64,000 bases of DNA from Akanthomyces muscarius. Taxonomy: Eukaryota; Ascomycota; Sordariomycetes; Hypocreales; Cordycipitaceae. The stretch lies in assembly GCF_028009165.1 (NCBI RefSeq), contig NC_079242.1, positions 5,146,001-5,210,000 on the forward strand, given 5' to 3'. A program made the position numbers and the translations under genes. This document shows, piece by piece, positions 8,496 to 21,432 of this stretch. The notes under the pieces are model-generated. The model searched no databases and had not been told where the DNA came from. It saw only the letters and a list, made by a program, of their open reading frames with translations. Within the stretch, counting starts at the first letter, position 1; each line of letters begins with the position of its first letter.

Positions 8496-8532
<37 letters not shown>

Positions 8533-8609
8533 ATAAAAAAATCAAAAACAAATCAAAAACAAATCAAAAAAAAAAAGTCGGGGCACTTCCAAACGAATTA
8601 TCTAGGACG
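8116..8609. promoter_or_regulatory. Upstream region of the coiled-coil gene with long A-rich tract
   Basis: Promoter/leader of the minus-strand coiled-coil gene. It contains a run of 30 A at 8501-8530 followed by A-rich, partly tandem sequence (repeated AAATCAAAAAC) to about 8577. Composition is otherwise normal and shows no sign of RIP. The retrotransposon target duplication starts at 8610. Confidence 0.55.
8501..8530. repeat. Homopolymer A30
   Basis: Uninterrupted run of 30 adenines on the plus strand, followed by a short tandem A-rich repeat. It could be a simple repeat or the relic tail of a non-LTR element; no coding remnant is visible beside it. Confidence 0.95.
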
Positions 8610-8614
8610 TTCTC
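8610..8614. repeat. Target site duplication, left copy (TTCTC)
   Basis: Five bases TTCTC immediately before the 5' LTR, identical to those after the 3' LTR at 21428-21432. Confidence 0.93.
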
Positions 8615-8788
8615 TGTTGGGCCACGGTCACGTGCTCCGCAGCACTTCCTGCCCTCCATCGCCGCCGTGCCCATCTTGTATCTTAGCTTCTATATCACTT
8701 AATACACACCAAATCTCTAATAAAGCTTTATTATATCGTGTGCTTGTTTCTCCCTTTATACCTCTATCACTTCACTCCGTACACCATA
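8615..8788 (+). repeat. 5' LTR (174 bp)
   Basis: Begins TGTTGGGCC and ends ACACCATA, where the final TA is the RIP-changed form of the canonical CA kept in the 3' copy. It aligns without gaps to 21254-21427. I count 19 differences, all transitions: in the outer half the 5' copy keeps the ancestral C/G, in the inner half the 5' copy is the mutated one. Confidence 0.95.
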
Positions 8789-9900
8789 TAGTAGTAATTG
8801 CCTTAGCGTGGAAATAAGTTCTTTAACACCCTATACCAATCCTAAGCTAGCCCCGCTCTCAGATAAGGTTTATTAACCATTCCGCTAACAGTCTATAACG
8901 TAACTTAGTCACTAGATAGTCAAGCCGCGCTCCTAATCCTAAGATTATATAAATTAAAGCCTTTTAAACTCCCTAAGTTAAGCCTCGCTCCTCTTTTAGT
9001 ATAGTTAAGCCTAAATAAGCCTCCTATAACCCTCTTTAATACGACCTCCCTAAGCTAAATAAGCTTTCTATATAGTTAAGCCTAACCCACTCCTATAAGC
9101 TATAAATTATTATTAAAAGTTTAAAATAGATACTTAAGGAACTTAAATATAAAAATCCTTTAAGTTATTACCTTTAGATATAAAAGGCCCCTATTAGCTT
9201 AGTTTTCCTCCTAATAGCTAGCCCTAACTGTCTTATAATATAATATTAATATCCTATATATTAAGACCTAGCTTATAACTACCCCTATTACTTCTTTAAA
9301 GGGAGCTAGCAGTTTATTAACTAATCTAATCTACTTTCTATCTTAGACCTTTATATCTTATTAACCTATTCTTATTACTAATAGGACCCTTTTATAGTAC
9401 TTACTTTAGATATAGTAAGAACCTCCCTTATTATAACACTAATAGACACTTCCTACTAAAAGAATAACACTAAGAAGTAGACCTTAAGCCTACTATACTA
9501 ATAGATAAGGTACCCTTTCCCTTTCCTTAATAGGATATTATAACCCTAAAAGCCTTTCCTATATCCTTTAATCTTATTAACCTTTAAGACCTTCTTACTA
9601 AAGACTTACCTATTTATAGTAGAAGAACCTTTAAACCGCTACTATTAGAATTATAAAGACCGCTCTTTACCTACTAGGCTAAATCCTTCTCTAGTTAGTA
9701 TAAACCTTAAAACATCTTATATAATAATAGTATATAAAGTAACAGCCTAGATAATATACCCTCTAAGCCACCTAGTACTAGTAAGACACCCCCTAATTCC
9801 TTCTATCTATCTATAGTCACCTCCTAACCTCCATATCCTATTATACCCCTAAAACTAGTATTACTTACTAGTATATATAGTAGTAGATAATCTAGTATAG
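8789..9900 (+). other. RIP-mutated leader of the retrotransposon
   Basis: About 1.1 kb after the 5' LTR in which I could not follow a convincing protein frame. The primer binding site should lie at its start (sequence after 8788 is TAGTAGTAATTGCCTTAG), but RIP has hidden its tRNA match. Confidence 0.5.
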
Positions 9901-11760
9901 CCCCTCTAGTATCCCTTATATAGCCACTTAAAGATTATACTAGAGCGGATTATTTAAAAGACACTATTATTATTAGTATTACCACTAAGGAAATCTAGAA
10001 TAGCTACCTCTTATATCTCTAGCCCTTACTTAATAGTAAAGTGGTAGTAACTAAAGCTATCCTTTATAGTATACCTACTATAAACTATAGTTAACTAAAA
10101 GCTAGGACTCTCTAAGATTTAAATAAGAAAACTTCTATCTTCCTTAATAAGTAAGCTATTATAGTTATAGTCTTATAGTTTTAATAAGGTCCTAATATAG
10201 CTAACCTTATATAATAATAACTAATATAATAGTACTAGTCCTACTCTAGCTAAAATATATCTACCCTTAGCCTATATTATTCCGCTAAAAGATATAGTTA
10301 TATTATAGATAATAATATCCCTAGTTCTTAACCTTACTATAAACATTACTTTAACGATAATATATATAGCCTACTACTATATTATAAATATTACTCTAAT
10401 AAAGACATATATAACCTACTAGGCTAATATAGATAGGGTAAAGAAAAGAGTAGACCTTATATCCACACTATCCCTAAGCTTAGCCTCCTTATATATAACT
10501 CTACTATTATATTAGTTAACATATATATCTCCTAGTTAAATATACTAGCTTAGCTTTATAGAGAAGACACTATATTAGCTTCTATTATTCCTAGTCTAAT
10601 ATCCTAACTAGAATTAGATAGCTATAAATAGTTTAATTCTTTTAGTCCTTTTATTAAAGACAGGCTAATCTTAGACTTTCCTTTTTAGAAGGAATAACTT
10701 TATTAACGTTTCTAGCTTAACTATAGTTAAATTATTTAAGAAGTAAATAGTATTATCTACTTATTTATAAATAAGTTAGTTTTATCTCTAAATTAGTACC
10801 TAAACTAGAAGATTACTAAATATAGTAAAGCTAGCTATATTAATAATAACTTAGTTACTTACCGCCTACTATTAGATATAGACCTTACCCTTTCTAAACT
10901 CGTTAACACTTAGAGTGATAATCTTTCTAGTAAATAGGTATAATAAACACTTATATCTAAAGCCCTAAGTGCTAGAAAAGATTAGAAATAGTAGAATTAA
11001 GTTATAATAACCTTTTAGTAAGAGCTCTCCTAATTATCTAAAAGCTATACTACTTAGAATAGATATAATTTAGGTCCTTAACTATCTTAATCTTAGCTAT
11101 ACTTATACTAAGACTCTAACAGTTTATATAGCTATAGCCGCCTATATAAACCCTAAGATAATATAGTATTTAATCGCCCTTACTCTAGAGATTTCTATAA
11201 CTTTTAATTATCTAATAGTTAGGATAATAGATATAAGCGTAAAGATTATCGTCCCTAATAAATAGGTATTCCCCTATCTAGCTAAGAATTATAACCCTAC
11301 TTAGCTAATAATAGTAACTATTTAGATTAGAATAGTCTACCCTATTCTAACTCTTAGGATTATTACTGTCCTAATAATAATAACCACTACTACTTACCCT
11401 TATAAGATAGGTACTAGTTACCTTCTTAAGATCACTATTATAATTTATATAGTAATAAACTGTATTTTAACTAGCCTAAAGTAAGGAAGGAGCGTTTTAA
11501 CCGCCTACCTCTACCCGCTGCCTAAGTCTATCTAATTTAAGTAAATATTACTAAGCTATCTTTAGATACCTTTACTAATAAGGATAGATATTAGTCCCTT
11601 ATAGTAAAAGATTACTATAGCTACTAGTAGGGAGTAAGCCGCCCCTACTATAGATATCTATATATTTATTACTATCTATTATAAAGTTATAAAACCTATA
11701 TTACTAAGAAAAGAATATACCCTAATAGGCTAGATTATAATAACTTTTACTATTAGAATT
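9900..11760 (+). pseudogene. gag-like ORF of the retrotransposon (RIP-inactivated)
   Basis: In the frame of positions divisible by 3, reading TAA/TAG as former Gln gives a long continuous, mostly hydrophilic protein. It has a helical middle section (for example around 10,660-10,960) and a basic C-terminal part near 11,220-11,260 (DNRYKRKDYRP). Around 10,332-10,415 there are regularly spaced Tyr/His residues that could be RIP-changed Cys of zinc-finger motifs. Position between the leader and pol, length, and the -1 frame relation to pol fit a Gag. No intact start codon; the limits are approximate. Function is inferred from position, not from a recognised capsid fold. Confidence 0.6.
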
Positions 11761-14700
11761 AGCAGACTAGCTTATTTATACCTAGTTATATAGCTATCTT
11801 TATACGCTTACTACTATAATATTAATAATCTTTAATACTAGAACTAGTTATAATCTTATTAGTCGCCTATATTTTTAGTTATACTTTACTTACCTACCCT
11901 TAAAACCCGTTAAACCCTTATCTATTAGTAGTATAGCTAAGATATAAGTCCTTAGTTATAAGACGGTACACTTACCTATAATATTATATATAGTTATAAA
12001 CTATTTCGTCTTATTTATAGCCACTATTCGTATAGTTAAGTTCCTCCCTTATAGCCTACTTCTTAGCAACTATTTCCTCTAGCCTAATTAGCTATATATC
12101 CTCTAGGGCTAAGGACAGGAACTAGACTATTTATAAGTCAGTAACAACTATATAGCGGTCTCTATAGTGCTACCCTAATAGAGTAAAGCTATTAAGTGTT
12201 AGTTACTTACTACTACTCCCTATATAATCCTACTAGGCAGCATAACATCCATTTCACTCCGTTATAGTCACCTCCCCTGCCACACAGATAGTTACCTTAT
12301 AGACCCAACTATTATGTCTAATTATACCAGCTAGATAATAGTATTATTAGTACCTAGTATTATTACTAGAAAGGAGACGGTATTCCCTATCTCTAATCTT
12401 AGTATAGCCCTAATACACATTTATAGAGGATAATTCTTAGGACACTTTTATTAAGTATATTAGATATAGTTAGCGGACGTTTTTACTATAGATAAGTGTG
12501 CTTATATTCCCTTAGACGAACTATTAGGCCCTAACTGCCTAAATATAGAACTAGAGGACCTAAGATAACTAGATAGATACCTATTTTATATTCCTAAACT
12601 AGACACTAATATTAATCTTTCTAGTACTAACATTTCTAATACCTAGGGCGTCACCTATACTAATAATATATATCATATTATAGCCTATTATATAAGGCTT
12701 TTCTATATAGGTATTAGGCGTTTTAATAATAGCGTAAAAATACCTATTACCCTAAAAGATAGTATCTCTTTAAAAGACCTTAGCTAATAGCCTTACACTA
12801 TATCTTACTATAATAAGGACGCTTTTAATAAGATAATTAATCCCTTATATACCTAAGGTGTCGTTAAGTCTATACCTTTAGGCGAACTATCTTTAGTGTC
12901 TAGCCCTATATTTATTATATAGTGTAATAGTAAACCTTATATAGTTATAGACCTATATCGCGTTAATACTAAGCTCGTATTAGATGCCTACCCGCTGCCT
13001 TAATAGGACGATATCCTCTCCTCCTTCTAAAGGTGTTCTATTTTTTCCTACCTTAACCTAACTAAGGGTTTCTTTTAGCAGCCTATCTATTCTAAATATA
13101 AATAGCTTACTACCTTTATTACCTAGTATTAAGAATAGGAATGTTTTACGTCTAGCACTATAAGACTAGCTATAAGCCTATCCTTCTTCTAACACTATAT
13201 AGAAGCCCTTATACGCCCCTACCTTTAGTAGTTTATCGCTATATATATTAATAATATTATCCTATACTCTTATATAACTATAGATTATTTTATTTACCTA
13301 GATATAGTCCTAAATATCCTCGCTACTTCTAGTTATACTCTTTTACTTATAAAATACTATTTTATATAGGAAGGTTTATAAGCTCTTAGATATTTTATAT
13401 CCCGCCTAGGTTTAAGCACTACCACCTAAAAGATAGAAGCTATCTATAACCTAGCTACGCCTTATAATCTTAAAGACCTTAAGATTAGCCTTAGCCTTAT
13501 AGGTTACTACTATAATTTTATTAACTACTTTACTAACTTAGTAAAGCTACTATAAAAGCTTAAAATAGCAGGATTTAAGTCTACCTCTAAATAGAACCCC
13601 TAATATAATAAGTATACTACTAAATAGGATTTAGAATAGTATAAAGCCCTTTAAGATAAAGGCAAGATTACTTAGAATAAGCTAAAGACTATATTAGTTA
13701 AAACTTATATAATAGCCTATCTAGACTTTAGTATACTATTTAAATTACACATTAATAGGAGTAAGAAATATAGTTATAATATAGCCTTATACTAATAATA
13801 ACTAGATAAAGTAATACGTCTAATTATATTCCTCTTTAAAGCGCTATTACTAGCTAAGATAAACTATAACGCTATAGAACTAGAAACTAGTATTTTAGTT
13901 TAGGCCTTAGGAAAACTAGAATATTATTTAGATAGCTTCTTAGTTATTATTATTATAGACCACACTACTATTAGAGATACCTTCTAATCTATTAGCTCTA
14001 ATAAACCTAAAAGTAAGTACCGCCTAGTAAACTAGCGCCTCTTCCTAGAAAAATAGCGAAATAAAGTATAAATTATATATCACTAAGGCCGCTATTATAT
14101 TAATATAGATACACTCTCTCACCTACCCGTAATTCCTAAGAAGGAAGTAGACGTCCTACCTATAATAGCTATTCCTATTCCTACTCTAAAAGCCTTCCTA
14201 GTAGAGCTCTATAATAAGATCTTAACTGCCCTACTAGTTAACTATATATTCTATAAGGTTTTCTATAAGATTAATAAGACTAGGTATAGTTTACTATCCT
14301 TTAAGATTTATTATTATATAGGCCTACTATTTTTCTATAAAAGCCTAAATAAGGCCCCTTACCTATATATTCTAAAAGCTATTATTTAAGATATTATATA
14401 GATAGTATATAACAACTACACTTATCCTAATATCTATAACACTTATAAGTTCCTCCTCCCTCTAATTTTCTACCTAAGTGTCTATAAAATAGTTACGTGT
14501 TATATTAATAGATATCTAGAATATACTAAGTCTAAACCTTAGTATAGCCTCCCTTATAGCGATATAGTACCTATTCTAACACTAAAAGTTCCTTTATCTA
14601 CGCTATATCTAGACTTTATTACCAGCCTACCTATAGATATAGATATAGACACTTTACTACTTATTACTAATAAGTTTACTAAGATAATAAGGGTAATTAT

Positions 14701-15640
14701 TAATCGCCTAAATTAGGACGCTACCTAATAGGCTAAGTATTATATCTAATAAATTTATCTAAATTAGGGCATACTATATATCCTAATTTATAATAATAAT
14801 CCTAAGTTAGTATCCTAGTTATAGATAGCTCTTTATTACGCTACTAATATAATAATAGTAATAAGCGCCCTATACTACTAATAGGCAAACAGATAAGTAG
14901 AACACTTTATATAAACTCTTATCTATAGCCTTTATACTATTATTAGAGCTTAATATAATACTTCTACCTAGTATTTATTTTTACTATATATCTTAAACTA
15001 CCTTAATAATTATAGATATATATTAATAGATATCTCCCTATTTAAGTTACTCTATAATCGCTTATTAGTCTATTTCTTAAACCTAAACGCTATTATTAGT
15101 ATAGAAGACTCTTATACCCTCCTTATCGCTTTATAATAGCGCTATAAGCTTACCTAAGATACTATATAGCTAGCTACTACCTAGATAAAGATTCTCTATA
15201 ATAAAAACTATAAACCGCCACCTTATATTAAAGAAGGCGATATAGTTTATATTAAGCTTACTAAACCTAGTTAAGATAGTTACTACTTATAAAGCTAAAC
15301 TAAGTTATCTTATCGCTATATTAGTCCCTTTTATATAACTAAAATTATTAGCCCGCTCCGCCTCTATCTTAACCTACTAGACTACCTTAAATAACACCCT
15401 AAAATAAGTATTAAGAACTTAGAACTAGTACACCTAAATACCTATCTAGTAGCCTTTTTAGGCCCTATACACTATTATAAGGAAGAAAAGTTTATTATTA
15501 ACGAAATTTTAGATAAGAGATATAAAAATAGCTATATAGAATACCTAATATAATAGTTTAGATATTCTTAAGATTAGGACACTTAGGAACTAGAAAGATC
15601 TTTATAATAAGATATCTTATAACTACTTAACTAGTTCTAT
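11760..15640 (+). pseudogene. Ty3/gypsy pol polyprotein with chromodomain (RIP-inactivated)
   Basis: All domains lie in one frame (positions 2 mod 3). Protease: RIP form NTRTS of the DTGAS active site at 11,834-11,848. Reverse transcriptase: the block around 12,950-13,020 reads DLYRVNTKLVLDAYPLP, then KGFFQQP near 13,070, and YINNIILYS, the RIP form of the YIDD catalytic motif, near 13,241-13,267. RNase H: KLHINRSKKY and ELETSILVQAL around 13,740-13,920. Integrase core: LDFITSLP near 14,610, the second Asp region IYNNNPKLVS near 14,800, and the Glu region ANRQVEHFI near 14,885-14,915 (Q restored from TAA). Chromodomain: EEKFIINEILDKRYKNSY from 15,482, followed by an IKW-type stretch and a DTWEPE-like end near 15,595. 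Residue changes and stops are consistent with C-to-T and G-to-A transitions only. Confidence 0.93.
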
Positions 15641-15959
15641 TTATAATAGTTATAGTAAGCTTTAATTTTAGCCGCCTATTATATATAGTTAATCACATTA
15701 AGATCCTACACCTTTATTTACACTATTAACACATCTAAAACAGCTAGTTATAGACCTTAGAGATTTTATTCTTTAAGGCTATAACTATACTATTTTTATT
15801 CTTATATACCTACCCTATCTCTAATTATAATATTATATTATATTATATATAAAAATTTTGCTATTACCTAATAACTAGCTCTAACAGTTAGGTCGCTAGC
15901 TAATAATAAATATATCTATAAATATAGTAAAATAAGTTAAAAAAGGCTAAAGTTAATAA

Positions 15960-18900
15960 ATTTTTCTATTTAAAAATATCTTTATTCTATAAGCTTATAG
16001 CTTTCTTTATTTTCTAAAAGTACTCTTAGCGCCCTACCTCTTATATTCACTAAATATTTATTACTATAGCTAAATCCTATAAAGACCGCCACTATACTAA
16101 ACATAACTAGTATACACTAAAACCTTATAGTTCTCTAGCCCCGCCCCCTTAAGATAAGATCGTAGCCTCTTAGCCCGCCCCCCCCTCTACTACCCCTAAT
16201 AGCGTTAAGAAAGATAAGATTAAGACTCTCCTATTCTCTCCACCCTCTACTACCCCTAATAGCGTTAAGAAAGACAAGCCCACAGCTATCTAGCCCAAAC
16301 CTACTAATACTAACTAGGGCTCTGATAATCCTCCTAGCCCTACTAATAATAACTAGGGCTCTAATAATCCCTCTAGTCTAATAGCCACCACCTAGGGCTC
16401 TACTAACCCGCCTAGCCCTACTAATAATAACTAGGGCCCTAAAAATCCTTCTAGTCTTATAGCTAACCCCTTTAGCCTAGCTAATAACAAATAGTACTTA
16501 GACGGCCCTCCTAGCCCTCCTAGCCCCGCTATTAACGATAGATAGATCGCTAACAGCCCTCTTAGCGTAGATAATTTTAGTCCTAACAGTATTAAGACCC
16601 TTAATAGATAAGATAATAAAGACGCCCTATTAGAGGAAAAGAAGCTAAAAATAAAAACTATAGCTTAAAAATAGTAAGAGGAACTCCTTACCTAACTAGA
16701 AGGTAAAAAACTTACTAAAGTCCTTAAAGCTAGCTATATATTTAATAGCAAGTCGACTAGATATATCCTTCTCTAGCCTAATAGCTCCGCCCCTATTTAT
16801 AGCTACTACCTTACACGTATTAGTCGTCTTAGTAAGGGTAAATAAAGCGGTTTAACTACTTATCTTAATATATAACTTTCCTAATATAGTCCTAAATAAT
16901 TTAGCTTATACTATAACTAGTATATAGGCTAAAGACACACTTTAGGCTATAATATAGTCGCGGATTTTAATAGCACTACACTTAAAGCCTAGACCTTTAA
17001 TATTAAGGAAGAAGAGGGCTATAACCTACTATACGTCCTAAACTCTATTATAAAAGACACTAATTTTCCCCTATCCTAAGCGGATAATAAAGAAAAATAT
17101 AAGATTAAGGAAAAAATTATAGACTATAACCTTAACTTAACTATCACTATAGTATACTTTCTATAAGCTACTAAGCTCTCTATCTTATTACCTAAAGGTA
17201 GTATCTTTATAGTATAATATAACTTTACTAACTAAAAGGCTATTATTAGTAATATCTAGAAAAAAGCCCTCCTCCCCTTTATAAATATCTTACTAGAAGA
17301 TAATTTAGTTAAGATCTCCTTATTTATTTATAGATAGAAAGATTAGGATAACACTTTTAAATTTATAGTTATATAAGGTGACTATATAGAAGGCTTCCTA
17401 GTTAGTTTATTTTTTAATAATATTAATAATAATAAGATACTTAATATAAGTAATATTAATATATCCTACTATCCTATCCCTACCTATTCTATTATAACTA
17501 TAAATAACTTTATTAATAATATATAATATATAAAAATCCTTACTATAGGCGTAGCTTATAAAGTAAGGTTCTTAAAGATAAAGAGTTTAGTTTATAGTTA
17601 TTTATATTTTTAGTCTAGTCTAATTCTTATAGATATAACCTAATAGCTAAAAGCACCTATAGATAAAGACACCTTTAGTATTACTAGTTATAGCTAGTAC
17701 TATAAGTTTTACCTTAAGGTTAAATATCTTAAGGACAGTTATAATTACCTACTAGATCTCTTAATCTTAGTAGAGATCTACCTAAATATAGCTTATAAGT
17801 TTAAAGATATTCCTAAAATAGCTATAAACGCTATAAATATTAATACTACTATTATAGCCTTCTTTACTAAGTTTAAAGACTATAACACTATAGCTTAGGA
17901 TTATATTAAAGGTATAGATAAGTAATATTATAACACCTATACTTATAAATAAAAAAATAACTTATATAACACTAATAGCCAGCTAATTAACAACTTTAAG
18001 GAAGATAATTATAAGCCTATATTAGTAACAGACTAGATAACAGTCTAGCTCCCCTTTATATATAAGCGCCTTATTAGTCTCCTTTTACCTAATATTCCTT
18101 ATAATCTTATAAAGTAATAGCTTACTAGTTAGAAAATTATAGACATATATAAAGCTATTACTATTAAAGCTATTACGACTCTTATTACTATCACACCTAT
18201 AAATAAGTAGGTAGTTTATATATAGCTTACTATATAGTTTAAAGCCTATCATTCTATTAAAAGTAACATAGATAATATTATTTAGATAGATATTAAGTAG
18301 TATAGTTATTATATTCTATAAGTCGTAAGTACTATTTCTAGTTATTAGTTCTATCTCCTTAAGACACTAAAACACCCTAACTAGCCGCTATACTTATCTA
18401 CTCCCTCTCTCTATTTCTCCTATAAGAACCCTAATATTAGTAGCTCTCCCTAAAAGTTTATAGATAATATAAGGTACACTATCTTTATAGTTATCTTCTA
18501 TAATATAGATACTAATATACTAAAACATAAAGGTTACTTTACCTACTTTATAAATAATCTAACTACTAACTCTAAAGGCGCCGCTTAGTAGGTATAGTAA
18601 CTAAGTCTTAATTACAACCTAAATACTATTATAAAGGCTAATCTACTAAAAGAGTTCCCTAGTATTACTATACACTTCTAATAGGGCGCTTTTTAAGGTA
18701 AATATAGTAAAGCCACCTTAGCTCTAATAACCTCTATAACTAATAAGTTTATCCTCTTAGGAGGTCTAGGATTTAGTAAGTCTACCTTTACCTAAATATA
18801 TTTATCTAGCACTTTAATAGGTAACACTATTCTTAACAGCTAGTTAGGTTAAATAACTACTATCCACACTATTAGTATAAACGCCCTTATATTAGATATA

Positions 18901-21060
18901 CACACTATATTTTTACATAATAATCCTACCTATTTAGCCACTTATACGTTTACTTTTTAGAAAGAGCTCTTAACTATCCTTTATTATAAGCCTCCTTAGC
19001 CTAAGCCTACTACTAAGGAGATTATAGCGCGGGTTATAACTAAGATCTAGCTAAAACGCCACGCCACGCCTACTACTATCTATAAACATATTATATGTCT
19101 TAAAGAACTTAGCTAGGAATTACACTCTCCTAGCCGCTATAAATATAGTCTCGCCTTAATCGCTATCTAGTATATTAAGAGTAACCTAGCCACTTATAGT
19201 GCCGTTTATAAAAGCTAGGCTAAATATAATATAGACTTTATAGTATAAGAAGCTAAGAAAAAGACACTTAAAAGTACTATTACTAAGCTACTCTATTAAA
19301 TTATCTAGGATATAGATATTATATTTTATATACCCTATATAATAAGAGACCTTAAAGATAATTATCCTAACTATATACCTACCTTAGTTATTATTAATAA
19401 GACGGGCTTCCTTACTAAGACCTAAATACTTATACCTATCGCCTATTAGCTAGATATAGCTGCTATTATCCTTAATAATCCTAACTAGTTCTATCTAATT
19501 ATTATATACTAGTATAAGCGGTTATATTTTAAGCTAGAGCTAGTAACCTAAACTAAGATAGCCCTTACTCTAGAGTTTAATAATCTTATTAGTAAGTAAT
19601 ATCGTTACCCCTTCCTCGCCTATATATAAAACCTCTATACTATAAACTATACTCTTATTTATAACTATTACGTTTTTAGATCTATAGGCGAATATATAGA
19701 CTATAATATATTTAATAGCTAAATAGAGTGTATAAACCTTACTAATAACTCTATTATATAGTCTCTCTAGTAATAGCTAGCTATAAAGTAGGAATCTAAG
19801 CCTAAAAAGAATCTCTTATAGCTTAAACTTAGTGATAGCGCTAAGGAGCTAGTAGGCACCTCCTTTACTAACCCTACTAAGATATAATATTATATTAAAA
19901 TAGCTATCTAGTTTTATTATAATATTAACTTTCCCCTAATAAGCGACTAGCTAGAATATAAGGCTAGTAAATATAATACTAATATAATTTAATATAGCTA
20001 TATTCTTATTATTTATATATATATATAATAATATAAGCTAATACTATCTATATTAATAGACATTCTAGTATATAAAGTAGACACTTTATATATTAAAGTC
20101 TATACTATTAACTAAAGTCTTAACTACTAAAAAGAAGTCGTCCTTCTATCTATTAGCTACTCTTAGAATCCTAGTTACACCTATAAGATTAAGCGCTCTA
20201 ATATCGCCCTTATATATTATATATTACTTATAATTACTATTTCTTCTAAGGACCTCTATTATAGTTTTAATCTTAATAAGTACTACTTATACTATAAGAA
20301 GTATAAGTATTTTTAGTTACTTTAAGGTTAGTCTAAATAGTATACTAAATACTTATAATATAGCTATATTATAGTAAATTATAAGGAACACCTAGTATAC
20401 GCCTTTTATAAAAGGAACTATACTAGCTGCTACTATAAGCGTATACCTACGTTAAAGCTCACTAAGGTTAACACCTAAACTAAGCCTATAACTACTAGTA
20501 ATAAGAAGCCTCTCCTAGCTATAAAAGACCCCACTACCACTAAAAAACCGCCCACCACTAGCAATAATAAGCCTATTAACAGCCTAACTATAGAAGACCC
20601 CACAGCCACTAAGAGGATCGCTAGTTATAATAATATCTAGTATTTAATTTAACACTATACTAACATTTAGAAAGGCAGGAAGCCTAAAGTTAACACTCAC
20701 CCCTTTTATACAGTAAAGACAGCTAACTATAAGCACCTTTTAGCTAAGTTCGTCTAATAAGATAACACTAAGACTAGCACTACCCCTACTACTAACACTA
20801 CCCCCGCTAACAGCGTAACGCCTAAGGATAATAGCGGCAGCTCTACTAATAGCACTTCTAACCGTAATAATCCTCCTAATATCGTCGATAATAATAAAGG
20901 CTCCTCTTTTAGTACTTTATCTACTAAACCCCCTATTATCTACCTAGCTAACTAGTATAAGATGTTAGACTAGTAATAGACTAAATAGGAAGCTTACTAC
21001 CTCTATAAGATAGACACTTCTATATAGTAAGAATAGAAGGTTTTTTAGTATAAAAGATAT
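15960..21060 (+). pseudogene. Third retrotransposon ORF: UPF1/DNA2-like SF1 helicase with proline-rich N-terminus (RIP-inactivated)
   Basis: One frame (positions 1 mod 3) can be read for about 5 kb with only TAA/TAG interruptions, each explainable as a former Gln codon. The N-terminal part (16,130-16,570) is Pro/Ser/Asn-rich with tandem repeats. Helicase motifs follow in order. Motif I is GGLGFSKST at 18,760-18,786, a RIP form of a P-loop. Motif II is NKTGFLTKT at 19,396-19,422, from DEAG-FLTET. Motif III is NNPN-stop at 19,474-19,488, from GDPNQ. Motif V is KEVVLLSISYS near 20,131-20,163. Motif VI is KIKRSNIALIYY near 20,185-20,220, from RRxNIALTRA. This order and the VVLLS...RRxNxALTRA signature are those of UPF1/DNA2/NAM7-type superfamily 1 helicases. 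Downstream (20,281-20,445) are Tyr/Cys/His-rich positions that may be ruined zinc knuckles, then a Thr/Pro/Asn-rich tail. Start and end are approximate. It lies wholly between pol and the 3' LTR. Confidence 0.75.
16187..16470 (+). repeat. Tandem repeats in the N-terminal part of the helicase ORF
   Basis: Two copies of a unit reading PPSTTPNSVKKDK (around 16,186-16,224 and 16,237-16,275), followed by several copies of a unit reading about NPPSPTNNN-stop-GS (16,330-16,470), where the stop is a former Gln. The DNA copies are nearly identical despite RIP. Confidence 0.8.
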
Positions 21061-21253
21061 AGACATAAATTATTTACTTATTTTTTCCTTACCTATTATT
21101 ATTATATAGCTCTATTAAGTATAAAAAGGGACTATATATTATAGTTATTAGGAATTTAATAAAAAGTCTTTTATTTTTCTTATATAAGTACCTTAACACT
21201 AAGACTATTATTATAACATTAAGGACGATATCTTTTTTCTTTCGCTAGGGGAT

Positions 21254-21427
21254 TATTAGGCCACAGTCACGTACTCCACAGCACTTCCTGCCCTCTATCG
21301 CCGCCGTGCCTATCTTATATCTTAGCTTCTATATCACTTAATACGCACTAAATCTCTGATAAAGCTTTATTACATCGTGTGCTCGTTTCTCCCTTTGTGC
21401 CTCCATCGCTTCGCTCCGTACACCACA
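21254..21427 (+). repeat. 3' LTR (174 bp)
   Basis: Begins TATTAGGCC (the RIP-changed form of TGTTGGGCC) and ends ACACCACA. Its inner half carries the RIP changes and its outer half is unmutated. A short purine-rich stretch (AGGGGAT, about 21,247-21,253) just before it is a candidate polypurine tract. Confidence 0.95.
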
Positions 21428-21432
21428 TTCTC
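21428..21432. repeat. Target site duplication, right copy (TTCTC)
   Basis: TTCTC directly after the 3' LTR, matching 8610-8614. Confidence 0.93.

Follow-up and report, generated by a model that had tools for sequence, protein, structure and literature searches.

Positions 8615-21427 of the window, a stretch of 64,000 nucleotides of the Akanthomyces muscarius genome (contig NC_079242.1, hereafter C2; 5146001-5210000), are occupied by a single Ty3-type long terminal repeat (LTR) retrotransposon of 12,813 bp, which has been inactivated by repeat-induced point mutation (RIP) and which carries, downstream of pol, a third long open reading frame (ORF3). On balance, we read ORF3 as a divergent superfamily 1 (SF1) helicase, most likely UPF1-like, which would have served this 12.8-kb element as an accessory helicase acting on the element's RNA. 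The mobile unit, ORF3 included, is found at two unrelated sites with different target-site duplications (TSDs), and a third insertion survives as a solo LTR. Comparison of its damaged motifs with those of host helicases supports the reading of ORF3 as an SF1 helicase preceded by a long N-terminal region that contains low-complexity repeats.

ORF3 moved with the element

The 36.2-Mb assembly (12 contigs) was searched with three queries, taken from the helicase region, from pol and from the LTR, the resulting copy counts being lower bounds. A second full copy was found on another contig (G000:C5:3916310-3929121; hereafter the C5 copy), which measures 12,812 bp against 12,813 bp and aligns with the window copy from end to end at 85.7% identity. 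It has the same layout, with ORF3 after pol as in the gag-pol-helicase order that the first-pass annotation had proposed to look for in other copies, and it is flanked by its own target duplication, TATAT. The search further revealed a solo LTR on contig C4 (L008), with a third target duplication (TATAG) and 0 transversions relative to the 5' LTR of the window copy, and a degenerate LTR piece on C5 near 994 kb (77% identity), which brings the family to at least 2 full copies, 1 solo LTR and 1 degenerate LTR piece. The C5 copy lies about 41 kb from its contig end.

The two full copies differ at 1,831 positions and by one 1-bp gap near 9115. Because 1,824 of these differences are transitions and only 7 are transversions, the source copies of the two insertions are judged to have been nearly identical, ORF3 included. 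The 12.8-kb unit was thus inserted with its ORF3 at two unrelated sites, after which both copies mutated in place. ORF3 stands at the same place in both, the alignment having no gap at its edges, and neither in nor around ORF3 of the C5 copy were inverted repeats detected, the direct repeats being all short (16-69 nt). Since the copies are collinear and have different TSDs, ORF3 was mobile with the element and no later insertion occurred at either site; a nested insertion at the window site, one of the origins that the first-pass annotation had considered, is thereby refuted. Its alternative proposal, that the helicase is a functional part of a giant retroelement family, survives in its first half, a part of the element being the best reading, while "giant family" is too strong for at least 2 full copies.

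In the window, the boundaries of the element could be read directly and agree with the TSD-bounded LTR element described earlier, with paired direct LTRs of 174 bp lying inside a TTCTC duplication:

8610..8614, + strand, 5' target-site duplication TTCTC, by direct reading (same as 21428-21432)
8615..8788, + strand, 5' LTR, 174 bp, 155/174 positions identical to the 3' LTR
21247..21252, + strand, AGGGGA directly 5' of the 3' LTR, the same in both full copies
21254..21427, + strand, 3' LTR, 174 bp
21428..21432, + strand, 3' target-site duplication TTCTC

The 19 differences between the two LTRs are all transitions. The LTRs are of the TG...CA kind, each with one mutated end (TG...TA for the 5' LTR, TA...CA for the 3' LTR), and AGGGGA is a possible polypurine tract. 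An A-rich tract of 76 bp (8501-8576) precedes the 5' target duplication at a distance of 33 bp.

Reading frames under RIP

At 29%, the G+C content of the element is below the 56% measured over 50 kb of the remaining window, and the window copy is depleted in CA and TG with an excess of TA, which is the mark of RIP. While both dinucleotides are scarce in the window copy (51 TG, 217 CA), the C5 copy retains 773 TG and 95 CA, one strand having been hit far more than the other. As RIP turns CA/TG sites into TAA or TAG, stops of these two types are weakly informative; TGA codons of the C5 copy, in contrast, inform on the frame because TG is largely spared there, though some of them may derive from CGA, C-to-T change before G occurring in this copy. 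The TGA counts in forward frames 0, 1 and 2 of the C5 copy were 9, 5 and 24 over 8800-11700, 16, 29 and 4 over 11700-15640, and 47, 4 and 17 over 15943-21060. This distribution therefore places ORF1 in frame 1, pol in frame 2 and ORF3 in frame 1. Counts of all stops tell frames 1 and 2 of the ORF3 region apart much less well.

The third frame of about 1,700 codons downstream of pol, claimed from the window alone, is thus borne out: over 15943-21060 it comprises 1,706 codons, with 118 TAA/TAG in the window copy and 98 stops in the C5 copy. The only four TGA codons that this frame has in the C5 copy pair up at 16843/16930 (87 bp) and 19885/19990 (105 bp); they may have arisen by chance, come from CGA codons through RIP or be remnants of introns, three possibilities that are indistinguishable here. 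ORF3 was probably open when the copies arose, because its motif series can be made out despite RIP and few TGA codons interrupt the frame along its 1,700 codons. Its parts are as follows:

15943..21060, + strand, ORF3, mod 3 = 1, about 1,700 codons, start and stop approximate, from frame and TGA counts
16300..16463, + strand, 39-bp tandem repeats, 4 copies, in the low-complexity N-terminal part of ORF3
18748..20232, + strand, predicted SF1 helicase core, with motif blocks I at 18748, II at 19384, III at 19465 (the least sure), V at 20104 and VI at 20191
19639..20193, + strand, AAA_12-matching stretch (E=8.8e-4, 19.3 bits, C5 core; position transferred from C5)

Helicase-like motifs of ORF3

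SF1 motifs I, II, III, V and VI are found in this order in one frame. In the window and C5 copies, respectively, they read GGLGFSKST and GGLRSSKSI (motif I, G at 18,760), INKTGF and INEAGF (motif II, DE-equivalent at 19,396), NNPNX and SNLNX (motif III, GD-equivalent at 19,474), VVLLS in both (motif V, 20,137), and KRSNIAL and KRSNIAF (motif VI, from 20,191). To score them, motif blocks of six host UPF1-like helicases, some genes lacking some blocks, were combined into a model under simulated RIP. This RIP-damaged model, whether applied to each copy alone or to both, placed motifs I, II, III and V at residues 936, 1148, 1175 and 1388, and motif VI at residue 1417 (1429 for the C5 copy alone), in agreement with the positions given in the first-pass annotation. 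The scores were 20.9 for the window copy, 29.6 for the C5 copy and 49.0 for both, and in each case none of 500 column shuffles reached the score. With a background taken from the composition of each window tested, the true window gave z=6.0 (0/120 shuffles), whereas 17 other frame windows gave at most 2.5; across runs, z of the pooled model ranged from 5.3 to 6.5. Of the five ordered motifs claimed earlier, I, II and V score, while III and VI add nothing, so that the case rests on motifs I, II and V and their order.

Profile scans were run on ORF3 translated with stops as X. Pfam AAA_12 matched the 667-residue core of the C5 copy (E=8.8e-4; 19.3 bits against a curated cut-off of 27), while the other five frames of that core drew no Pfam match at E<=5. 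No AAA_11 match was found in the C5 core, and no Pfam family in the N-terminal 819 and C-terminal 254 residues of C5 ORF3. The AAA_11/AAA_12 search suggested by the first-pass annotation thus yielded one of its two profiles, below cut-off and in one of the two copies; by these profiles, ORF3 resembles UPF1-like helicases and is not assigned to that family. A two-row profile of the last 915 ORF3 residues recovered no helicase from a protein database or the PDB, and none of the viral contigs matched C5 ORF3.

Several results weigh against a helicase reading. AAA_12 was lost when the full-length C5 ORF3 (1,706 residues) was scanned, no Pfam match being obtained at E<=1, and no helicase model in Pfam matched ORF3 of the window copy. 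A wrong-frame fragment drew an unrelated match at E=0.013, which limits the trust to be placed in such E-values. Three protein database searches returned no ORF3 homologue (E<=0.1, E<=1 and E<=1; word-limited, with about 8,000 candidates scored in two of them), and ORF3 had no match in PDB, NCBIfam or PHROGs. Motifs III and VI contribute -2.2 and -0.3 bits, and with wider spacing ranges motif III shifts to 1184-1186 in three of five models. A model of the undamaged host motifs, which included one spurious motif V row, was equalled by 16/1000 shuffles of the C5 copy and 77/1000 of the window copy. Under a fixed background, before composition correction, the RIP-damaged model gave minus-strand frames scores as high as 48.4, a control that misleads in that this background is unfit for minus-strand frames. 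A hidden Markov model (HMM) built from the cores of four host helicases scored the element cores at 0.4 and -3.6 bits, values reached by 1/2,000 shuffles of the C5 core and 351/2,000 of the window core when shuffles left unreported by HMMER (1,609 and 1,617) are counted as lower. Finally, the analyst who set the spacing ranges and the damage rates already knew the motif places claimed earlier, and the two copies share an ancestor and are not independent evidence on that ancestor. Weighing these results, we hold with fair confidence that ORF3 would encode an SF1 helicase, a very divergent one.

The SF1 assignment is better supported than the UPF1-like subtype. Motif I falls at 936-937 and motif II at 1148 in every model, that of Pif1 included, and motif V at 1388 in every UPF1-like model. 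The DE-to-GD distance, taken at the place named earlier, is 26 residues, compared with 24-25 in host UPF1-like genes (5 of 6 genes with DE in range) and 36 in host Pif1. Pooled UPF1-like blocks scored 52.2 against 5.8 for Pif1, which is an unequal comparison of a pool with one gene under spacing that excluded Pif1's own 36. The gap between the two narrows with true single-gene blocks and wider ranges, which somewhat weakens the preferred reading: z was then 4.6, 2.6 and 2.4 for the individual UPF1-like genes L030, L027 and L028, and 5.3 for the three pooled, while the one-gene Pif1 model reached z 2.8 (1/300 shuffles). By these single-gene values, the main support for the UPF1-like subtype comes from the AAA_12 match and from motif V as found in a single host gene. 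Because of the AAA_12 match and the 26-residue distance, a UPF1-like (AAA_11/AAA_12) helicase is nevertheless favoured and is likely, rather than another SF1 type. Of the UPF1/DNA2-like helicase announced in the first-pass annotation, SF1 is therefore supported, and the subtype stands as likely.

Origin of ORF3

The possibility of a captured host gene, also raised earlier, was addressed by subjecting six host SF1 genes to simulated RIP. The damaged genes matched themselves at 990-3,344 bits, their best paralogue at 29-138 bits and the four-gene core HMM at 51-576 bits, against the 0.4 and -3.6 bits of the element cores. The damage rates were chosen and applied to CA/TG sites only, which may understate the real damage, other contexts being hit too; the margin is large. 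Because the host genes remain recognisable after such treatment and ORF3 does not, a recent capture of one of the six tested genes appears unlikely. Phmmer comparison of ORFs longer than 150 aa from nine host loci with both copies yielded noise only, host SF1 genes beyond the six being compared as raw ORFs. ORF3 resembles cellular UPF1/SEN1/DNA2-like SF1 helicases in motif order, in the spacing of motifs II and III, and in its AAA_12-type motif V, while no similarity at whole-sequence level was detectable between it and the host genes that were compared.

A sister element was sought downstream of the reverse transcriptase (RT) genes of a RIP-damaged family on C8 and C11 (2 of 17 damaged RT loci), where no blastn match to the present element was found. 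A 66-residue tblastn piece in this family, on the opposite strand and with E=8.7e-4 in the absence of composition correction, was taken as chance. The two loci of this family, C8:757218-760358 (L047) and C11:647500-650640 (L048), are 90% identical over 3.1 kb.

gag and pol regions, and other retroelements of the genome

Upstream of ORF3, the element has the gag-position frame and a pol frame with RT and RNase H, as is expected of Ty3/Gypsy elements:

9502..11832, + strand, ORF1 in gag position, mod 3 = 1, ends approximate (C5 copy free of TGA over 9499-11833 in this frame)
11948..15640, + strand, pol ORF, mod 3 = 2, ends approximate (4 TGA against 16 and 29 in the other frames over 11700-15640 of the C5 copy)
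12947..13366, + strand, RT core (RVT_1, E=2.1e-5, below the Pfam cut-off, C5 copy; position transferred from C5)
13727..14047, + strand, RNase H (RT_RNaseH, E=1.7e-6, 28.6 bits, above the Pfam cut-off, window copy)
15236..15406, + strand, integrase C-terminal SH3-like domain of Tf2-1 type (SH3_Tf2-1, E=4.8e-5, below cut-off, window copy; 0.054, C5 copy)
15491..15613, + strand, chromodomain-like stretch (Chromo, E=0.057, sub-threshold, C5 copy; no match in the window copy; string EILDKR...EYL by eye)

ORF1, itself RIP-damaged, matched no Pfam family in either copy, including gag, zinc knuckle and protease profiles. No profile matched the integrase catalytic core, though SH3_Tf2-1 was found downstream of RNase H. 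The earlier description of the element as a chromovirus with a chromodomain holds as far as the string visible by eye, the Chromo profile being sub-threshold in one copy and silent in the other. The element shares with Tf1/Tf2-like and other fungal chromoviruses (Ty3/Gypsy, Metaviridae) its TG...CA LTRs, 5-bp TSD, RT and RNase H, together with a putative Tf2-1-like integrase C-terminus and chromodomain-like tail. What sets it apart is an additional long ORF, bearing helicase motifs, that follows pol and precedes the 3' LTR. It is about twice the usual length of a chromovirus.

Other RT-bearing elements of the genome were also noted. Ten contig ends have, no more than 4.4 kb away, RT genes with stop-free frames of about 1,000-1,400 aa (for instance at C1:4184, C3:4183, C5:4183, C6:4183, C5:3965726 and C8:870652), which look like a telomere-proximal retroelement family, seemingly undamaged despite strong genomic RIP. 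At C1:7427655-7447034 and C4:4834770-4854149, RT genes of equal score with stop-free 1,190-aa frames recur every 6,299 bp, four per contig end, like tandem arrays of one element.

Proposed role and alternative explanations

Under the reading we prefer, the element would have used its own RNA to produce the helicase, an accessory protein expressed perhaps by way of a subgenomic mRNA or by re-initiation, and this RNA would also have been the substrate of the helicase. Most likely, it would be a self-supplied RNA helicase of the cytoplasmic part of the cycle, a role that is proposed because host Upf1 is a Ty1 cofactor in yeast (PMC3522557, PMC4589538). Its possible tasks include protecting the genomic RNA, long and with three ORFs, against degradation, or restructuring it ahead of packaging and reverse transcription. 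A long stretch after the first ORF makes an RNA a target of nonsense-mediated decay, and the three-ORF RNA, with its first ORF ending near 11.8 kb, about 9.5 kb before the RNA end, would be a natural target of this kind. A self-made UPF1-like helicase could then replace or compete with host UPF1. The stronger proposal that this is a fungal Ty3 lineage whose own UPF1-like third gene replaces or blocks host Upf1, or RNA surveillance, on multi-ORF RNA seems to us rather unlikely.

The main rival, a less probable reading that deserves serious weight, is that ORF3 is passenger cargo, acquired once by an ancestor and carried through a few recent transpositions with no role of its own. The pick-up of ORFs downstream of pol is documented for LTR elements (PMC6431247), only the small family described above (at least 2 full copies, 1 solo LTR and 1 degenerate LTR piece) was found in 36.2 Mb, and the two copies, nearly all of whose differences are RIP, are too recent for selection on ORF3 to be measured. 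A mere passenger is, on the other hand, less readily reconciled with a motif series that is recognisable despite RIP and a frame poor in TGA over 1,700 codons, by which ORF3 was probably open at the origin of the copies, nor is it a fresh copy of any of the six host SF1 genes. It is improbable, in our estimation, that ORF3 is a real gene and no helicase, its motifs being chance in a RIP-skewed composition. Such a view would account for the lack of a database relative, the non-scoring motifs III and VI, raw motif scores that are mildly unusual (16/1000 and 77/1000 shuffles), the host-core HMM scores of 0.4 and -3.6 bits, and single-gene models mostly at z 2.4-2.8; it is countered by z 5.3-6.5 of the pooled model, by the agreement in motifs I and II among models built from different host genes, and by an AAA_12 match in the same frame and order.

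Two further origins of the helicase were weighed. That it came from an RNA virus, as in insect LINEs, and suppressed RNA silencing has a precedent in those insect helicases, for which weak silencing suppression is reported in a plant test system (PMC6338049, PMC5563155). We consider this quite improbable, AAA_12 being the sole profile match and no viral helicase family having been found in Pfam (C5 core at E<=1, window core at E<=5), a weak negative for RIP-damaged sequence and with a viral SF1 motif model left out. Very improbable is a helicase-bearing element, Helitron or other, nested in the ancestor of the LTR element and co-mobile with it since. Helitron, Academ and Kolobok are the common transposable elements with helicases in fungi (PMC10799480), and the single-gene fit of Pif1 about equals that of two of the three UPF1-like single-gene models; yet later nesting at both sites is excluded by the identical place and gapless edges of ORF3, the C5 copy has neither inverted repeats nor long direct repeats around it, and the spacing of motifs II and III together with AAA_12 favour a UPF1-like helicase.

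Relation to known systems

No Ty3 element with a helicase ORF was found in the open-licence PMC literature, most subscription journals and Repbase lying outside that search. The statement of the first-pass annotation that no such helicase is known in Ty3/gypsy elements is to this extent upheld, while for retroelements at large it meets precedents in insects, where viral SF1 helicases are reported in LINEs and, in ORFs of Aedes aegypti and Leptopilina boulardi, as fusions with Ty1/copia proteins, together with weak silencing-suppressor activity (PMC5563155, PMC6338049). The insect TRAS and Jockey LINEs and Ty1/copia fusions likewise join a retroelement protein to an SF1 helicase; as reported there, they are domains of LINE polyproteins or single Copia fusions with helicases of virus type, whereas here the helicase would be a separate ORF of a fungal Ty3 element with an AAA_12 match (PMC5563155, PMC6338049). 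LTR elements with captured ORFs in the place of env also carry an extra ORF past pol, no helicase in an LTR element being noted in the available portion of that account (PMC6431247). A survey of fungal LTR elements mentions complex elements with inserted domains, the word "helicase" being absent from its main text (PMC3248453), and a fungal screen of domains derived from transposable elements assigns helicases to Academ, Kolobok and Helitron (PMC10799480).

Retroelements depend on host helicases. In yeast, Upf1 is among the host factors required for Ty1 cDNA (PMC3522557), Ty1 transposition is reported to fall to 2.5% of the wild-type level when UPF1 is lost and to 3.4% when UPF3 is lost, and Ty3 needs P-body helicases (PMC4589538). 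If the reading proposed here is true, an element with its own UPF1-like helicase would offer a natural handle on why such host factors matter, and the acquisition of helicases by retroelements would extend from insects to a fungal Ty3 element.

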